47,625 nt of DNA, taken from NCBI GenBank assembly GCA_027315385.1, contig DAHUYD010000139.1:1-47625 (forward strand), read 5' to 3'. Origin of the DNA: Acidobacterium sp. Its GTDB lineage: Bacteria > Acidobacteriota > Terriglobia > Terriglobales > Acidobacteriaceae. The first letter of the stretch is position 1; each line of letters opens with the position of its first letter. Below, in pieces: positions 171 to 44,020 of this stretch. Position numbers and translations under genes: made by a program. The notes below the pieces were generated by a model. That model saw only the letters and a list, made by a program, of their open reading frames with translations. It was not told the DNA's origin and did no database searches.

Positions 171-2156
171 CTACTGCTGCAGCAGGATGGAGACCGATCC
201 GTCTGTCAGAACAACGGCGAGATCCAGCTTTCCGTCGCCGTTGAAATCCGCAGCCGCGAGGGCGAAAGGTCCTTTGCCTGTCGCGTACGGCGAACCGGAC
301 GCCTCGGTAAACGTCCCATCGCCGTTCCCCAGTAAAAGCGTCACGGTGTTGTCGCTGTAATTAGCGACAGCAAGATCCAGCTTCCCGTCGTTGTTGAAAT
401 CTCCCTCGACGATCCCATCCGGCTCATGGCCCACCGGGATCGTAAGGGGCGCCTGAAACGTGCCGTCGCCATTTCCCAGGAAGATGTCCACGGCATTGTT
501 GCCCGTCACCGCAAGGTCCAGCTTTCCGTCGTCGTTGAAGTCGCCCACCACCATCGTCCCCGCACCAACGGGAAGTGGTGGTTCAGGCGCCTGCGTGAAC
601 GTCCCATCTCCATTGCCGAGCAGAATGGCGGAACTGGTTGCCACATCGAGCTTGCCGTCGCCATTGAAGTCCCCGGCAGCGGAGAAATTCCCAGTCTCGA
701 GATTTTCCTGCGGCACTTGATTGAACGCACCGTCGCTGTAGCCCAGCAGGATATTGGGCCCGTACACTCCGTCCGCGAACAAATCCAGGTTTCCATCTCC
801 GTTGAAGTCTGCCGCGGTGAGCGTCAAGGATGCGGGTCCGTCCTGCGCCAGTGTGTTCGCATAGCTGAACGTACCGTTTCCGTTCCCGAACAGAATCGAC
901 GCTGCTCCGTTCAGCCATAAGCCGACCGCCAATCCAGGATGACCGCTGTGATTGAAGTCGCCCACCGCCAACGGTCCTGTGTACGGTGATGCCAGGTCGT
1001 CGTACGGCGGGCTCGGTATCGAAACCGGAGATCCCACCGCGGGCGTAAATGTACCGGCCCCGCTTCCGAGCATCACGTACAGCCGAACGTTCGCTACGAT
1101 TGCCAGATCCGCATTGCCATCCTGATTGAAGTCCGCTACCGCCACTCCGGTCGGTTCGGGAACCTGTAGCGGAGAGCCCGGAGCATTCGCAAAGCTCACC
1201 GTCGTCTCTGGAGCGCCCACCTGAAAATAGTCCGTATTCGACGCGCCTCCGCCGGGGGCCGGATTCATGACCGTGATTGAGGCGGTCTGCGCTTTCGCCA
1301 CATCCGTTGCCGGTACCGTCGCGCTCAAATGCTCGCTGTCCACGAAAGTGGTCGTCAGCGGCGCGCCGTTGAAGTCGACCGTCGCGCCTGAGACGAATCC
1401 CGTTCCGCTCACCTGCAGGGTCAGTCCAGGACCACCCGGCGCAACGGCAGTCGGCGCCAGCGGCTGGTTCAGGAACGGTATTGGATTAGCCTTTGAGGAA
1501 CTGGCTGGATTGATCTGTATGCTGAGGAACCCGTCGTAAGCCAATTGATTGTCCGCATCCACGGCAGTCGCTTCAAAATACCAGGTTCCTGCCGCAGTCG
1601 GCGTTCCGGTAATCATGCCGCTGCTCGCATCCAGTGACAATCCGTCCGGTACCGAGCCGCCCACCTCCCAACCTGTGTCGATTGGCCCATCGTAGACGCT
1701 CCACTGAAACGGCCCGGTCCCGCCCGTCAGCGCGATTGGCTGACTGTAGGACAAGCCCACCGTTCCGCTGGCGAGCGTCTGCGAAATCGGCATGAACGGG
1801 TACGGATCCACCGTAATGGTCAGCGAAGCGCTCTTTGTCGGATCCGCCACCGAAGTCGCTGTCACCGTCGCCTGTTCTGCACTCGTGATGGACGTAGTCG
1901 GGGAAAGATAACTGGCTGAGCCGACCGCTCCTGCCGTTTGCAGAGACCCTGGCCCGCTCAGGCTCCACTTGACCCCTCTGGAATGACTATCGTTGGTCAC
2001 TGTGGCTGTGATGGCAATCGTCAGACCCTGATCGGTGGCGGCGGAAGTTGAAGGAGAAAGACTGACCGAGATGGGCGGCGCGGAACCGGCACACCCGCCC
2101 AGAATCGTGGCCACGGCCACAGGCACCACCAGCCAGCAGGAACGCCGCCTGAACAT
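171..2156 (-). CDS. Lipoprotein with Ig-like modules and a seven-repeat FG-GAP/VCBS propeller
   Basis: This 661-residue protein begins with a lipoprotein signal (basic MFRRR, hydrophobic core, L-G-G-C with Cys22), so it is probably anchored in the membrane with its body outside the cytoplasm. Residues about 29-117 resemble a bacterial Ig-like domain. About 118-215 form a putative-Ig (He_PIG) domain with GLSLDASSGMITGTP. About 220-312 resemble an IPT/TIG domain. From about 335 to the end there are seven repeats built on DFNGDGKLDLAV, the FG-GAP/VCBS type of calcium-binding beta-propeller blade. The second repeat (DFNHSGHPGLAV) has lost the acidic loop residues. The start is supported by GGAGG just upstream. 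Such proteins are usually surface adhesins or carbohydrate- or protein-binding scaffolds. No catalytic site is visible and the ligand is unknown. Confidence 0.85.
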   Translation of the reverse strand: MFRRRSCWLVVPVAVATILGGCAGSAPPISVSLSPSTSAATDQGLTIAITATVTNDSHSRGVKWSLSGPGSLQTAGAVGSASYLSPTTSITSAEQATVTATSVADPTKSASLTITVDPYPFMPISQTLASGTVGLSYSQPIALTGGTGPFQWSVYDGPIDTGWEVGGSVPDGLSLDASSGMITGTPTAAGTWYFEATAVDADNQLAYDGFLSIQINPASSSKANPIPFLNQPLAPTAVAPGGPGLTLQVSGTGFVSGATVDFNGAPLTTTFVDSEHLSATVPATDVAKAQTASITVMNPAPGGGASNTDYFQVGAPETTVSFANAPGSPLQVPEPTGVAVADFNQDGNADLAIVANVRLYVMLGSGAGTFTPAVGSPVSIPSPPYDDLASPYTGPLAVGDFNHSGHPGLAVGLWLNGAASILFGNGNGTFSYANTLAQDGPASLTLTAADFNGDGNLDLFADGVYGPNILLGYSDGAFNQVPQENLETGNFSAAGDFNGDGKLDVATSSAILLGNGDGTFTQAPEPPLPVGAGTMVVGDFNDDGKLDLAVTGNNAVDIFLGNGDGTFQAPLTIPVGHEPDGIVEGDFNNDGKLDLAVANYSDNTVTLLLGNGDGTFTEASGSPYATGKGPFALAAADFNGDGKLDLAVVLTDGSVSILLQQ

Positions 2157-2822: not shown

Positions 2823-3620
2823 ATGCGTTTTGCCAAGGTGCATGCCTGCGGCAATGATTTTCTGATTGCCGAAGGTCCATGCGATCCGCAGTTGGCCAAA
2901 AAGCTCTGCGAGCGCCATTCCGGCATCGGCGCCGATGGCGTCGAATTCCTGGAACGCACCGGGCCCCGCGCCGGACGCATTCGCCTCGCCAACGCCGACG
3001 GCTCCATCGCGGAAATCTCCGGCAACGGCACGCGTTGCGTCGCCGCCTGGATGGCGCACACTGAAGGCGCCGTTCCCGGAGATGAAATTACCCTCGACAC
3101 CGACGCGGGGCCGCGCACCTGTCGCATCGTCGAAGCCGCCGGCAGCCATTTCCTCATCGCCGCCGGCATGGGCGTTCCCCGCATTGAGCCCGCCCAGGTG
3201 ACCCTTGCGGACAAGACCCTGGTCCGCGGCACCTGGGTCTCCATGGGCAATCCTCATTTCGTCATCGTCGTCGACGACCAGAACTTTCGCGCCCACAGCC
3301 GCGGCTGGACCGAACTGGGCCGCGAGATCTGTTTCCATCCGCAATATCCCCAGCAGATCAATGTCCTCTTTTTCCGCATGATCCGTGCCGATGAAATCGA
3401 GATTCGTATCTTCGAGCGAGGCGTCGGCCCCACCACCTCCTCCGGCACCGGAACCTGCTCCTGTGCGGCTGCCGTCATCGCATTTTGCGGCGGAAAATCT
3501 CCGCTCGCAATCCACGCTCCAGGCGGCACGCAGCGCGTCGAGTGGTCCGGCCCCGGCACGGAAATGATCCTGACCGGCCCTGCCGGCCTCATCGCCGCCG
3601 GAGAGACGCTCCTTGGCTAG
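2823..3620 (+). CDS. dapF: DapF-family diaminopimelate epimerase homologue with Ser in place of both catalytic Cys
   Basis: This 265-residue protein has the diaminopimelate epimerase fold signatures: N-terminal ACGNDF, SGNGTRC, SMGNPHFV and ERGVGPTTSSGTG. DapF interconverts LL- and meso-diaminopimelate for lysine and peptidoglycan synthesis with two cysteines acting as acid and base, in QCGNG and ACG(S/T)G. Here those positions are Ser66 (ISGNG, codon TCC) and Ser207 (SSGTG, codon TCC). Other cysteines lie nearby (Cys9, Cys72, Cys212, Cys214) but not at the catalytic positions. It may be a lineage variant, a slow epimerase or an enzyme with another substrate. GGGAGG precedes the ATG. It overlaps ldcA by 8 bases and heads a dapF-ldcA-mpl-plsC operon, which supports a role in DAP or wall-peptide metabolism. 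Confidence 0.85.
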   Translation: MRFAKVHACGNDFLIAEGPCDPQLAKKLCERHSGIGADGVEFLERTGPRAGRIRLANADGSIAEISGNGTRCVAAWMAHTEGAVPGDEITLDTDAGPRTCRIVEAAGSHFLIAAGMGVPRIEPAQVTLADKTLVRGTWVSMGNPHFVIVVDDQNFRAHSRGWTELGREICFHPQYPQQINVLFFRMIRADEIEIRIFERGVGPTTSSGTGTCSCAAAVIAFCGGKSPLAIHAPGGTQRVEWSGPGTEMILTGPAGLIAAGETLLG

Positions 3621-4566
3621 TGCGGTCCTCAAGCCCCCCGCCGTCGCTCCCGGCGCGCGCATCGCCGTCGTCGCACCGGCCAGCAGCGCCAATCCCCAGC
3701 GCATTGCGCGAGGCATCGAGGCTCTCCGCGCGCTCGGCTACGACGCTGTGGCCGCCGAGCATCTCTACGGCAGGCATCCGCCCTTCTTCTCCGGCGCCGT
3801 CGAAGACCGCCTCGCCGATCTGCACCGCGCCTTCGCCGACCCCGAAGTCGCCGCGATCGTCTGTGCCCGAGGCGGTTACGGATCGAACTATCTCCTCGCC
3901 GGTCTCGATCTTGACCTCATCCGCGCCCACCCCAAACCGTTCTTCGCCTACAGCGATATGACCGTCGTGCAGACGTGGCTTCTCGATCGGACTGGCCTGG
4001 TCGCCTTTCACGGTCCCATGGCCGCGGCGGATTTCTGCGTCGGGAGTGGCGTCCATCTTCCCAGCTTCCAGGCCGCTCTCAGCGGCGGCCTGGTGCAGGC
4101 GGGCGCGGGGCAGGGAATTCGCACCCTCCGCCCCGGCCGCGCACGCGGACGGCTCTGCGGCGGCTGCCTCAGCCTTCTCGCCTCCGCGCTCGGCACGCCC
4201 TATGCGCCTCAACTCGAAGGGAAGCTGCTCTTCCTCGAAGATCAGGGCGAGAAGCCCTACCGCATCGATCGTCTGCTGCGGCAAATGATCCTGGCAGGGA
4301 AGTTCGAAGGCGTCCGCGGATTCGTCTTCGGCGAGATGCCCGGATGCGAATCAAACGGCGTCTCTCCTGTGCTCCTCGACCGCGTCATCCTCGACGTCCT
4401 CCGCGATTTCGACGTGCCTGTTGCCATCGGCTTGCGCTCGGGCCACGTTTCCGCTGGCAATGTCACCCTGCCTCTGGGAATCGAAGCAGAGCTGATTCTG
4501 GACAACGATGAGCCGCTGCTACGATATCTGGAGCCCGCTGTCTTCGGCCCTTCTCATGCAGGATAA
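3613..4566 (+). CDS. ldcA: LD-carboxypeptidase (peptidase S66)
   Basis: S66 enzymes cut the terminal D-Ala from murein tetrapeptides in the cytoplasm, making tripeptides for recycling. The 317-residue protein shows the Ser-Glu-His triad: Ser91 in ARGGYGS, Glu209 in LEDQGEKPYR, and His278 in GLRSGHVSAGN. The start is a TTG at 3613 that overlaps the dapF stop by 8 bases, which suggests translational coupling. The reading starts MASAVLKPPA, giving the usual family N-terminus (ARIAVVAPAS). It overlaps mpl at its 3' end. Its product is the natural substrate of Mpl, the next enzyme. No signal peptide is seen, consistent with a cytoplasmic enzyme. Confidence 0.88.
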   Translation: MASAVLKPPAVAPGARIAVVAPASSANPQRIARGIEALRALGYDAVAAEHLYGRHPPFFSGAVEDRLADLHRAFADPEVAAIVCARGGYGSNYLLAGLDLDLIRAHPKPFFAYSDMTVVQTWLLDRTGLVAFHGPMAAADFCVGSGVHLPSFQAALSGGLVQAGAGQGIRTLRPGRARGRLCGGCLSLLASALGTPYAPQLEGKLLFLEDQGEKPYRIDRLLRQMILAGKFEGVRGFVFGEMPGCESNGVSPVLLDRVILDVLRDFDVPVAIGLRSGHVSAGNVTLPLGIEAELILDNDEPLLRYLEPAVFGPSHAG

Positions 4567-5989
4567 GAAGCATATCCACCTCATCGGAATTTGCGGCACC
4601 GCTATGGCATCCCTGGCAGGCATGCTGCTGGTCAAAGGCCACCGCGTCACCGGCTCAGACCAGGCGGCGTATCCGCCTGTGTCGGATTTGCTCCGCTCCC
4701 TCGGCATTCCCATTGCGGAGCCCTTTTCGCCCGCGAATCTGCTGCCCGCTCCTGACCTCGTTATCGTTGGCAATGCCATCTCGCGCGGCAATGTGGAACT
4801 GGAAACCGTCCTCGACCAGCGCATCCCCTTTGCGTCGATGGCCGCCATCCTCCATCAGGAGTTCATCGCCGGGCACGAATCGCTCGTCGTTGCCGGCACA
4901 CACGGCAAGACCACTACCACCAGCATGCTGGCCTGGATCTACGAGGTTGCCGCGCGCCGCCGGCACGAGCTCGCCCCGTCGTTCCTCATCGGGGGCATCG
5001 CCGAAAACTTCGGAGCCAGCTTTCAATTGCGCCCTGGAAAACCCTTCATCGTCGAAGGCGACGAGTACGACACCGCGTTCTTCGACAAGGGTCCCAAGTT
5101 CATGCACTATTTTCCCGACGCGCTTATCCTTACGCACGTCGAGTTCGACCACGCCGACATCTACCCCGACCTGTCCTCCGTTAAAACCGCTTTCAAGCGA
5201 CTGGTGAACCTGGTTCCTCGCCGTGGCCGCATCGTCGCCTTCGACGGAGCCGGCAACGTGACGGAGTGCGTCAGCCGCGCCTTCTGTGCCGTCGAACGCT
5301 ACGGCTTCAGTGCGGATTCCACCTGGAGGCTCGCGAAGCTGCGGTTCGAGGAGGGAACCAGCCGCTGGCATATCCTCCATGGCGACCAAGCCTGGGGTGA
5401 CGTTACGCTGCCAATGGCTGGCGAGCACAATGCCCTCAACGCCACAGCCGCCGCGGCCCTCGCTGCCGGCCAGGGTGTGCCCCGGGAAGCTATCGTTGAG
5501 GCCCTGGCCACGTTCCGCAGTGTGCGCCGCCGGCTCGAAGTCCGCGCTGAAGTCAACGGCATTACGATTATTGACGACTTCGCCCATCACCCTACCGCAA
5601 TTCGCGAGACTCTCCGCGCCCTGCGTGTGGCTTATCCGGGACGCCGGCTCTGGGCCGTCCTCGAGCCGCGCTCCAATACCCTCCGCCGCAATGTCTTCGA
5701 GCGAGAACTGGTCGAGAGCTTAGCTCTCGCCGATCGCGTGGCGCTGTCCGGAGTCTTCCACTCGGAGAAGATTCCCGAATCCGAGCGCCTTCATCCGGAG
5801 AACGTTGTGGCAGCCCTCGCCGCTTCCGGCCGCGACGCTGTCCTGCTCGCAGACGCCGACGCCATTGTCGCCAGTCTGGTCTCCCGCCTCCGCTCCGGCG
5901 ATGTGGTGGCCATTCTCTCCAATGGCGGCTTTGATGGTATCTACAACAAGCTTCCGGTCGCGCTCCAAAAGGCCGAGCGGAAACTCTGA
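4556..5989 (+). CDS. mpl: UDP-N-acetylmuramate:L-Ala-gamma-D-Glu-meso-DAP ligase
   Basis: Mpl joins recycled murein tripeptide to UDP-MurNAc using ATP, bypassing MurC, MurD and MurE. The 477-residue product has the Mur-ligase order: N-terminal Rossmann part (HLIGICGTAMASLAGM), ATP-binding GTHGKTTTTSM, EGDEYDTAFFD with LTHVEFDHADIYPDL typical of Mpl, GEHNALNATAA, and the C-terminal DDFAHHPTAIRETL. I chose ATG 4556 because MQDKKHIHLIGICG matches the usual family start. An in-frame ATG at 4508 would add 16 unlikely residues inside ldcA. It overlaps the ldcA stop by 11 bases and is followed 3 bases later by plsC. Together with LdcA it forms a complete tripeptide salvage step. Confidence 0.92.
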   Translation: MQDKKHIHLIGICGTAMASLAGMLLVKGHRVTGSDQAAYPPVSDLLRSLGIPIAEPFSPANLLPAPDLVIVGNAISRGNVELETVLDQRIPFASMAAILHQEFIAGHESLVVAGTHGKTTTTSMLAWIYEVAARRRHELAPSFLIGGIAENFGASFQLRPGKPFIVEGDEYDTAFFDKGPKFMHYFPDALILTHVEFDHADIYPDLSSVKTAFKRLVNLVPRRGRIVAFDGAGNVTECVSRAFCAVERYGFSADSTWRLAKLRFEEGTSRWHILHGDQAWGDVTLPMAGEHNALNATAAAALAAGQGVPREAIVEALATFRSVRRRLEVRAEVNGITIIDDFAHHPTAIRETLRALRVAYPGRRLWAVLEPRSNTLRRNVFERELVESLALADRVALSGVFHSEKIPESERLHPENVVAALAASGRDAVLLADADAIVASLVSRLRSGDVVAILSNGGFDGIYNKLPVALQKAERKL

Positions 5990-5992
5990 GCC

Positions 5993-6709
5993 ATGTTCGC
6001 CGCGTTCGTCCTCTTCGCCACGTGGATCGCGCTGGGTATTCCCGCCGCGATCGCCGGTATCCCCTGGACGGTCCTTACACGCGACATCACACGGTTGTAC
6101 GGCTGGGCCATGACCATCCTGCGCACGGGTCTGCGCCTCAGCGGCATCCGCGTTCAACCCGAATGGCGCGTTCCTCTCGAGCCGCTCCATACCTACATCT
6201 TCCTCTCCAACCATGTCTCGAATCTGGACCCTCCGGTGCTGTTCCCGCTGCTGCCCGGGCGTGCCGCCGCATTCGTCAAGCGCTCGCTCATGAAGATTCC
6301 CGTTCTCGGCTATGGAATGAGGCTCGGCAATTTCATCCCGGTCGATCGCGATGGACGCCTGGAGAGCGCGGTGGAGAGCGTCGAGGCGGCTGCGCGGGTT
6401 CTTGCCTCGCGCGTGCACGTGCTCTCCTTTGTCGAAGGTACGCGCTCCCGCACCGGGCGCCTGCAGCCCTTCAAGAAGGGTCCATTCTTCCTTGCCATGA
6501 GCACCGGAGCACCCGTAGTTCCGGTTTCGATCCATGGAACCGAGGCCATGATGCGCAAGGGCAGCCTGAAAATCTTTCCCGGCGCGGCCCACGTCACTTT
6601 CCACGCGCCGCTGTACCCGCGGGATTATGCCCGCCGCGAAGATCTGATGCAGGCCGTGCGCGAGGCCATCGCCTCAGGCTTGCCGGAGTGGATGAGGGCT
6701 AGCGGATAA
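5993..6709 (+). CDS. plsC: 1-acyl-sn-glycerol-3-phosphate acyltransferase (PlsC family)
   Basis: PlsC acylates lysophosphatidic acid to phosphatidic acid at the inner membrane. The 238-residue protein has one or two N-terminal hydrophobic segments (about residues 1-45), the catalytic NHVSNLD (HX4D), GNFIPVDR, the glycerol-phosphate-binding FVEGTRSRTG, and VVPVSIHG. All four family motifs are present. The ATG lies 3 bases after the mpl stop, so it is the last gene of the dapF operon. Its 3' end overlaps the convergent SPOR gene by 11 bases. The substrate acyl donor (acyl-ACP or acyl-CoA) cannot be told. Confidence 0.88.
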   Translation: MFAAFVLFATWIALGIPAAIAGIPWTVLTRDITRLYGWAMTILRTGLRLSGIRVQPEWRVPLEPLHTYIFLSNHVSNLDPPVLFPLLPGRAAAFVKRSLMKIPVLGYGMRLGNFIPVDRDGRLESAVESVEAAARVLASRVHVLSFVEGTRSRTGRLQPFKKGPFFLAMSTGAPVVPVSIHGTEAMMRKGSLKIFPGAAHVTFHAPLYPRDYARREDLMQAVREAIASGLPEWMRASG

Positions 6710-42946: not shown

Positions 42947-44020
42947 ATGCTGCTCGAAGGCATCTTCCCGGCCATGACCACGCCGTTCTACCCCGACGGC
43001 CGCTTGTACCTCCGCAAACTGGAACACAACGTGGAACGCTATTCCCGTACCGTCGCCGCGGGCATGGTCGTCCTCGGTTCCACCGGCGAACCCGTGATGC
43101 TCAGCGACGAGGAAACGCGCGGGGTTCTTCGCACCGTCGCCCGGAACGCCGCCCCGGAAAAAGTTCTCCTCGCCGGCGTCGGTCGCGAGAGCCTGCGGGA
43201 AACCCTGCGGTTCGCCGAATTCGCCGCCGCCGAACAGTTCGACGCCGTGCTTGCCCGCACTCCGCATTTCTACGGCCCGCAAATGCAGCCGCTGGAGCTG
43301 CTCACTTACTACCGCGCCCTCGCCGATCGGTCGCCGCTCCCGGTCGTGCTCTACAGCATTCCAAAATTCACTCACCTCGAGTTGCCGCTCGACGTTGTAG
43401 CTGAGCTGGCCCAGCATCCCAACATCGCCGGTATCAAGGATTCGAGCGGAAACCTCGAACGCCTCGCCGCCCTGGTGGCCGCCACCCGCGGCGCGCCGAC
43501 GCGCTCTGTCGAGGTGACGCCCGTCTTTGAGGCGGTCACCGCACGCATGACGCTTGCCGAGGCTGAAGCCGAAGCAGCTTTGGCTGCCAGCCTGATTCCA
43601 GTCGCTGCCCTCGGCGCCGAACCCATCAGCCCGGTCATGCTTGCTCCACGGCGCAAGCTCCTCGCCACTCGCAAAAGGGAAGTGGGCTTTCAGGTCATCA
43701 CCGGCTCAGCCGGTAACCTCCTGCCCGCCCTCGAAGCCGGAGTCTCCGGTGCAATCCTCGCCTTCGCTTCGCCCGCTCCTCAGGCCTGTCAGGAGATCTA
43801 CACAGCCTGGAAGGAAAACGATCCCGTGGTCGCGGCGGAAAAGCAGCGGCGCATCGCCGAACCTTCCAGGGTCGTCGCCAACAAATACGGGGTTCCGGGA
43901 CTCAAATATGCCTGCGATCTCAACGGCTACTACGGCGGAGTTCCTCGTGTTCCGCTGCTGCCCCTGAATGCCGAGCAGAAGGCCGAGGTTGCGTCGGCCA
44001 TGACGGATGTTCGAAACTGA
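42947..44020 (+). CDS. DapA/NanA-family lyase with an inserted segment
   Basis: Class I aldolases of this family condense or cleave pyruvate with sugars or aspartate semialdehyde. The 357-residue protein keeps VLGSTGEPVMLSDEE, Tyr136 (VLYSIPKF) and the Schiff-base Lys164 (GIKDSSGNLERL). The family is about 300 residues long. Here a stretch of about 60-70 residues (roughly 172-246), rich in Ala and Glu, is inserted between the Lys motif and the next conserved strand (VGFQVITGSAG). The reading frame is clean, so it is not a frameshift. The substrate cannot be assigned from neighbours: CsbD upstream, TonB-C protein downstream. It could be a hydroxy-keto-acid lyase or a DHDPS relative. Confidence 0.75.
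   Translation: MLLEGIFPAMTTPFYPDGRLYLRKLEHNVERYSRTVAAGMVVLGSTGEPVMLSDEETRGVLRTVARNAAPEKVLLAGVGRESLRETLRFAEFAAAEQFDAVLARTPHFYGPQMQPLELLTYYRALADRSPLPVVLYSIPKFTHLELPLDVVAELAQHPNIAGIKDSSGNLERLAALVAATRGAPTRSVEVTPVFEAVTARMTLAEAEAEAALAASLIPVAALGAEPISPVMLAPRRKLLATRKREVGFQVITGSAGNLLPALEAGVSGAILAFASPAPQACQEIYTAWKENDPVVAAEKQRRIAEPSRVVANKYGVPGLKYACDLNGYYGGVPRVPLLPLNAEQKAEVASAMTDVRN

Follow-up and report, generated by a model that had tools for sequence, protein, structure and literature searches.

DapF, the diaminopimelate (DAP) epimerase of cell-wall and lysine synthesis, is a model for cofactor-free racemisation, with a chemistry regarded as centred on its pair of cysteines. A locus from Acidobacterium sp., a soil bacterium, raises the question of whether a protein of this family can be a DAP epimerase with neither cysteine in place. 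In the window (the whole 47,625-nucleotide stretch of DNA analysed here), the gene at 2823-3620 (+ strand) translates to a 265-residue DapF homologue, containing NADGSIAEISGNGTRC and ERGVGPTTSSGTGTC, in which Ser66 (within ISGNG) and Ser207 (within SSGTG) stand at the two catalytic positions that are Cys in other DapF proteins. Both serines are encoded by TCC (codons at 3018-3020 and 3441-3443, + strand), and the translation, the codons and the phmmer alignment described below all agree with the initial annotation, which had pointed out this double substitution.

By whole-protein HMM score, the window protein belongs to the DapF sequence family (TIGR00652/PF01678): it scores 180.2 bits against TIGR00652 (cut-off 114.65), the sole NCBIfam family above cut-off, and 147.6 bits against PF01678 (DAP_epimerase; cut-off 34.7), the sole Pfam family found, and neither the Pfam nor the NCBIfam results include a proline racemase or hydroxyproline epimerase family. 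In phmmer, 17 solved sequences matched, and in the four alignments inspected Ser66 and Ser207 fall on both catalytic cysteines; the protein therefore does not have the Cys at both catalytic positions that marks the two-cysteine, cofactor-independent class of DAP epimerases. The curated NCBI model names the protein DapF by score although both catalytic residues differ; homology makes it a DapF, whereas its aligned catalytic residues set it apart from the two-cysteine DapF proteins. The closest relatives found that carry a name all belong to Acidobacteriaceae, and they are the basis for calling the phylum Acidobacteriota: identity is 91% to a MAG, 77 to 79% to MAGs labelled Acidobacterium and 69% to Paracidobacterium acidisoli. 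Viral contigs, when scanned, contained no relative. In the genome from which the window comes, 91% complete and in 194 contigs, PF01678 detects a single gene, which appears as two half-domain matches; a second, ordinary DapF with both cysteines, which the initial annotation had thought worth looking for, was not detected by the PF01678 search of this assembly.

The Ser/Ser pair is by no means peculiar to this genome. We aligned the DapF proteins of genomes with P0001 or TIGR00652 matches picked for retrieval, a non-random sample that outside the window's class consists mostly of one genome per family and in which, where a genome had several matches, usually the best one was taken. In the window's class, P0001 matched in 220 of 299 genomes, and 90 of these together with one further genome (G027, see below) give 91 aligned genomes (11 family codes, 59 genera, the window's own genome included), all 91 of which are Ser/Ser, a degree of conservation that, on these alignments, is beyond chance. 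The 95 aligned genomes from other classes of the phylum comprise 60 Ser/Ser, 32 Cys/Cys, two Cys/Ser and one (G607) with both kinds, so that the phylum total of 186 is made up of 151, 32, two and one, respectively. After merging of near-identical copies there are 215 distinct aligned sequences, 169 of them Ser/Ser; three extra copies of the window's own locus and a fragment from G481 (L212, in which the first position is a gap and the second Ser) were left out of the counts. Outside the phylum, 10 sequences sampled from 102 plasmid-collection records were Cys/Cys in nine cases and Cys/Ser in one, a Rhizobium plasmid homologue. Across the phylum, TIGR00652 matched in 384 of 396 genomes (class members included), with a score over cut-off in 350. 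P0001 found nothing in 79 class genomes; a TIGR00652 search of 30 of them gave a single match, a divergent Ser/Ser protein in G027. The suggestion in the initial annotation that relatives have similar SSGTG sequences is thus borne out; its suggestion of a lineage-specific epimerase holds in that an epimerase is favoured (see below), and was too narrow in that Ser/Ser is found in most aligned genomes of the phylum. In the titles, abstract openings and passages that made up our partial coverage of the literature, we found neither a description of a Ser/Ser DapF nor measured wall chemistry for bacteria that carry one.

Some less common arrangements were seen in the same alignments. Mixed Cys/Ser pairs occur in L149 (G304), L197 (G358) and the Rhizobium plasmid sequence (L268), the Ser/Ser and Cys/Cys proteins of G607 (L137 and L138) are found in one genome, and in some genera of family f7 the Ser/Ser motif reads SGNAMRC (L057, L067, L073 and L076).

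A trivial explanation would be that the alignment is out of register and that a nearby cysteine, Cys72 or Cys212/214, occupies the structural catalytic position. The AlphaFold model of the window protein (22 sequences; mean pLDDT 91.7, pTM 0.86) predicts the DapF two-domain fold, with the two catalytic positions at the N-terminal ends of two central helices (residues 67-81 and 208-221) that begin immediately after Ser66 and Ser207; in enzymes with a DapF-type fold, the catalytic residues have been placed at the ends of two central helices (PMC11602996). The best PDB matches of the model in Foldseek are DapF structures (E. coli DapF, 6d13: probability 1.00, TM-score 0.85 over the query); among the 50 matches listed, ranks 1-26 are DapF and O-ureidoserine racemase, and the first hydroxyproline epimerase appears at rank 31. 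Cys72 is the ordinary Cys of GNGxRC, found in 157 of the 169 distinct Ser/Ser proteins and in 38 of the 43 Cys/Cys ones, and six of the 169 Ser/Ser sequences have no Cys at all within residues 54-80 or 194-220. Because the helices start right after the serines and these six homologues lack a Cys near either site, a register error is excluded. The shift that the initial annotation had named as fatal to its reading therefore does not hold, and its statement that the fold is otherwise intact is in line with both the model and the Foldseek matches.

The window dapF is under purifying selection, with dN/dS values of 0.054 to 0.146 against five relatives of 68 to 91% identity; together with the presence of Ser/Ser in every aligned genome of the class, this rules out a pseudogene or a sequencing error. 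At the first site, 144 of 173 Ser/Ser sequences use a TCN codon and 29 an AGY codon, and at the second site the numbers are 168 and 5. Because TCN and AGY codons are not one step apart, the use of both implies that Ser has been kept or regained through change. In a quick tree of 136 representatives, built with the two catalytic columns blanked, Ser/Ser sequences form a main group of 84 rows, with five more rows grouped apart and a lone row (L191), among mostly Cys/Cys sequences. The three groups on the tree mean that Ser/Ser may have arisen more than once, and this is only a suggestion because a single Ser/Ser clade is not rejected by the AU test (p-AU 0.315).

We take the DAP contacts in solved DapF structures to be N11, N57, N143, N180, E198 and R199, with G67 and N68. 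The six side chains are present in the window protein, and among the 169 distinct Ser/Ser sequences N57, N180, E198 and R199 are found in all, N68 and N143 in 168 and N11 in 167; position 209 in Ser/Ser proteins is Thr (147) or Ser (22). The presumed contacts are in fact kept better in Ser/Ser than in the 43 Cys/Cys proteins, in which position 143 is mostly Val (30). Comparison of the Ser/Ser alignment with seven ordinary Cys/Cys homologues revealed no new conserved base near the serines that might replace Cys. Besides positions 66 and 207, Ala75 is the only query position that is shared by at least 80% of Ser/Ser proteins and absent from those seven homologues: in the main Ser/Ser group position 75 is Ala in 151 of 162 sequences and Arg or Lys in none. 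Ala75 is nevertheless dispensable for the Ser/Ser state, since the seven minor Ser/Ser rows carry Arg (5) or Gln (2) at this position.

The surrounding pathway was examined by profile searches. The window's own genome has DapA (290.3 bits) and LysA (471.9 bits), both over cut-off, and LysA is over cut-off in 16 of 20 searched Ser/Ser genomes, the four without a match being G114, G015, G382 and G299; G114 (family f7) has a Ser/Ser DapF (L057), and G607, with both kinds of DapF, likewise gave no LysA match. As to other routes to meso-DAP, a dehydrogenase route can be rejected, meso-DAP dehydrogenase being over cut-off in none of 28 genomes searched, the window's own included (one weak partial match there, 27.8 bits). 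Nor does the window's own genome have a DapL, plant-type or direct, over cut-off, the best match being a protein that passes the NCBIfam cut-off for alanine transaminase; the two alternative enzymes mentioned in the initial annotation, DapL and Ddh, are hence both without an above-cut-off match in this assembly, and the profile searches did not identify the LL-DAP-forming step there, the best aminotransferase being the same alanine transaminase. MurE is over cut-off in 26 of 28 genomes, and was not found in G009 or in the window's own assembly; in the latter a missing contig is a likely cause, because the contig with a murD-like gene (by ORF reading) ends about 0.5 kb beyond that gene. The motif DNPR, presumably the mark of a meso-DAP-specific MurE, is present in 25 of 26 retrieved full-length MurE proteins, 18 of the 26 coming from Ser/Ser genomes, and the remaining one, from the Cys/Cys genome G536, has DNPK. 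There are also genomes of the class in which no DapF was detected: none of 22 re-searched genomes of family f7 matched TIGR00652 or the divergent Ser/Ser protein of G027, two of this family (G005 and G022) having LysA and a DNPR MurE, and G275, a 98% complete genome from the window's own family, gave no match with P0001, TIGR00652 or the divergent protein. These cases imply that the class may possess an additional route to meso-DAP and that, going by the genome searches, the Ser/Ser protein could be more dispensable than it appears.

Gene context points in the direction of the cell wall. Downstream of dapF on the same strand lie an ldcA-like gene for a muramoyltetrapeptide (LD-)carboxypeptidase (3613-4566; PRK11253, 147.4 bits, below the cut-off of 378), whose TTG start, as listed, overlaps the end of dapF by 8 bases (the true start may differ), mpl, for UDP-N-acetylmuramate:L-alanyl-gamma-D-glutamyl-meso-diaminopimelate ligase (4508-5989; TIGR01081, 409.3 bits, cut-off 388.7), and a plsC-like gene for a 1-acylglycerol-3-phosphate acyltransferase (5993-6709; TIGR00530, 79.3 bits, below the cut-off of 102.95), all three assignments being supported by synteny. 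The coupling of dapF to ldcA and mpl noted in the initial annotation recurs beyond the window: the order dapF-ldcA-mpl is seen in 19 of 22 named loci, the exceptions being L099, which ends inside ldcA, and L109 and the Cys/Cys locus L114, which lack it, and the plsC-like gene is the downstream neighbour in most of these loci. Around dapF genes of the Ser/Ser, Cys/Cys and Cys/Ser kinds, 40 segments of 9.1 to 13.9 kb were searched with murE, dapL, dapA, ldcA, mpl and an ORF of the LysA locus. Three contained a queried partner (mpl in L298; ldcA and mpl in L303 and L308, both class members), the 20 Ser/Ser segments from other classes contained none, and clustering of the neighbours in the 40 segments, in which clusters carry no annotation, gave no recurrent gene recognised as belonging to the DAP pathway. 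In G027, of the same class as the window, the divergent Ser/Ser dapF (73.6 bits against TIGR00652, below the cut-off of 114.65) stands directly between murE (361.4 bits, cut-off 257.3) and dapL (TIGR03542, 614 bits, cut-off 364.7) on one strand, adjoined on the opposite strand by dapA (350.8 bits, cut-off 206.15) and a lysA homologue (293.7 bits, just under the cut-off of 297.9; loci L213, L251, L255 and L314). Read from gene order, this murE-dapF-dapL cluster is the strongest context evidence for a Ser/Ser protein serving DAP.

Two other genes of the window may be mentioned. Upstream of dapF on the other strand, 171-2156 (-) encodes a large, secreted-looking protein with many repeats (DFNGDGKLDLAV), which we take to be FG-GAP-like, and at 42962-43486 (+) there is a second homologue of the DapA (aldolase) family, with a score of 113.7 bits, below the dapA cut-off.

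Taken together, the conserved presumed contacts, the occurrence of the protein as the sole detected DapF beside DapA and LysA, and the gene context are the reasons for favouring a DAP epimerase. We consider it likely that the window protein is a working LL-/meso-DAP epimerase, with both opposed catalytic bases predicted to be serine hydroxyls; Ser66 and Ser207 are most likely the opposed acid/base groups of an otherwise ordinary DapF architecture. LL-DAP would bind as in ordinary DapF and the enzyme would close around it, with exclusion of water; one Ser, acidified by its helix N-terminus, would then take the alpha proton, and the other would deliver a proton from the opposite face, the resulting meso-DAP presumably feeding LysA and MurE.

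How this compares with better-known enzymes can be seen at several levels. The window protein is like DapF (TIGR00652, PF01678; E. coli 4ijz, H. influenzae 1bwz, C. glutamicum 5m47) over its whole length and in its two-domain fold, and has in common with ordinary DapF the catalytic positions at helix starts, the presumed DAP contacts and neighbours from the meso-DAP wall pathway; it differs in having Ser for both catalytic cysteines, and the main Ser/Ser group lacks a basic residue at position 75. The engineered DapF variants C73S (2q9h) and C217S (2q9j) have the same fold and one Ser at one of the same two positions, but are single mutants made in the laboratory, whereas the window protein represents a natural double Ser that the majority of the sampled phylum genomes share. 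In the proline racemase superfamily, which has a related fold and includes both epimerases and dehydratases, Ser occurs naturally in place of the first catalytic Cys, a Ser/Cys pair supporting 4-hydroxyproline epimerisation and a Ser/Thr pair going with dehydration (PMC4113996); these enzymes act on other substrates, their second position is Cys or Thr, and the sections of that account used here contain no Ser/Ser pair (PMC4113996). The histidine racemase HisR (9cr1, 9cr6) has a DapF-like fold and, as in the model of the window protein, a catalytic residue at the end of each of two central helices, but is Cys/Cys in the wild type, unlike the window protein, and single Cys-to-Ser changes greatly lower its turnover (PMC11602996). 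DapF has been discussed as an antibacterial target, and the C. glutamicum enzyme is inactivated by hydrogen peroxide, a disulfide between the catalytic cysteines closing the site (PMC5296763); by analogy, one might speculate that the benefit of a Ser pair lies in the loss of this oxidation switch, that is, in resistance to oxidation.

Other readings of the serines have to be set against a Ser/Ser DAP epimerase. It is very improbable, in our estimate, that a displaced cysteine (Cys9, Cys72, Cys212 or another) provides thiol chemistry, so that the two serines are of smaller importance than they seem: positions 9, 100, 146 and 212 are more often Cys in Ser/Ser proteins (fractions of 0.42, 0.46, 0.53 and 0.57, n = 173, Cys212 thus being present in about 57%) than in Cys/Cys proteins (0.07, 0.02, 0.07 and 0.16, n = 43), but no candidate Cys is universal, Cys29 and Cys72 are common to Cys/Cys enzymes too, six Ser/Ser sequences are without Cys around either site, and four of the 169 have just two Cys over the aligned length. 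The serines might instead mark a changed reaction or substrate, with the protein acting on another amino acid or on a cell-wall peptide as epimerase, dehydratase or eliminase; the initial annotation had allowed for another substrate. In favour of this, the Ser/Thr and Ser/Cys pairs of the superfamily go with dehydration and epimerisation, respectively (PMC4113996), the substrate has changed among relatives with the DapF fold (the close matches include O-ureidoserine racemase), a predicted DapF turned out to be a histidine racemase (PMC11602996), and four Ser/Ser genomes have no LysA match. Nevertheless, this option gains no support from the window protein and its relatives and strikes us as unlikely, since each presumed DAP contact is present in 167 to 169 of the 169 Ser/Ser sequences, no other DapF was detected alongside DapA and LysA in the window's own genome, and the G027 gene lies between murE and dapL.

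Whether the protein works at all is a separate matter, and here mutants provide counter-evidence. Catalysis is severely weakened in Ser mutants engineered in this fold (PMC11602996; PMC12039745), Cys-to-Ser changes having been made on purpose to hinder catalysis for crystals of DapF-type enzymes (PMC12039745), and in chlamydial DapF Cys-to-Ala changes abolish complementation as a glutamate racemase (PMC5885031). The Ser/Ser protein might then be dead or vestigial as an epimerase (for example, DAP-binding or regulatory), with another enzyme making meso-DAP, which would suit G005 and G022, with LysA and MurE and no detected DapF, the Ser/Ser and Cys/Cys copies of G607, and some f35 genomes with two or three TIGR00652 matches, one of which was retrieved. 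In a dead enzyme, however, drift would be expected at both sites, yet both serines are invariant and the presumed contacts nearly so, dN/dS is low, and a Cys/Cys copy stands beside Ser/Ser in only one of 152 aligned Ser/Ser genomes (second copies having been sought in part). We accordingly regard a dead enzyme as quite improbable, and the inactive partner considered in the initial annotation is disfavoured by the sole detected copy and by purifying selection.

A working Ser/Ser epimerase thus being the preferred reading, its occurrence as the only detected copy and in most relatives suggests, at the level of aligned sequences, that a common DapF enzyme can work without sulfur. We lean toward the view that most Acidobacteriota make meso-DAP by a cofactor-free, thiol-less epimerase in which two Ser hydroxyls would take and give the alpha proton. 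A natural, conserved Ser/Ser DapF would mean that removal of the alpha proton has to be explained anew: if the proposal is true, the thiol/thiolate pair is one solution to DapF chemistry and not a requirement for it. Ser/Ser DapF proteins also bear on the annotation of DapF by profile score, and would provide ready-made enzymes in which Ser and Cys bases may be compared in one fold.
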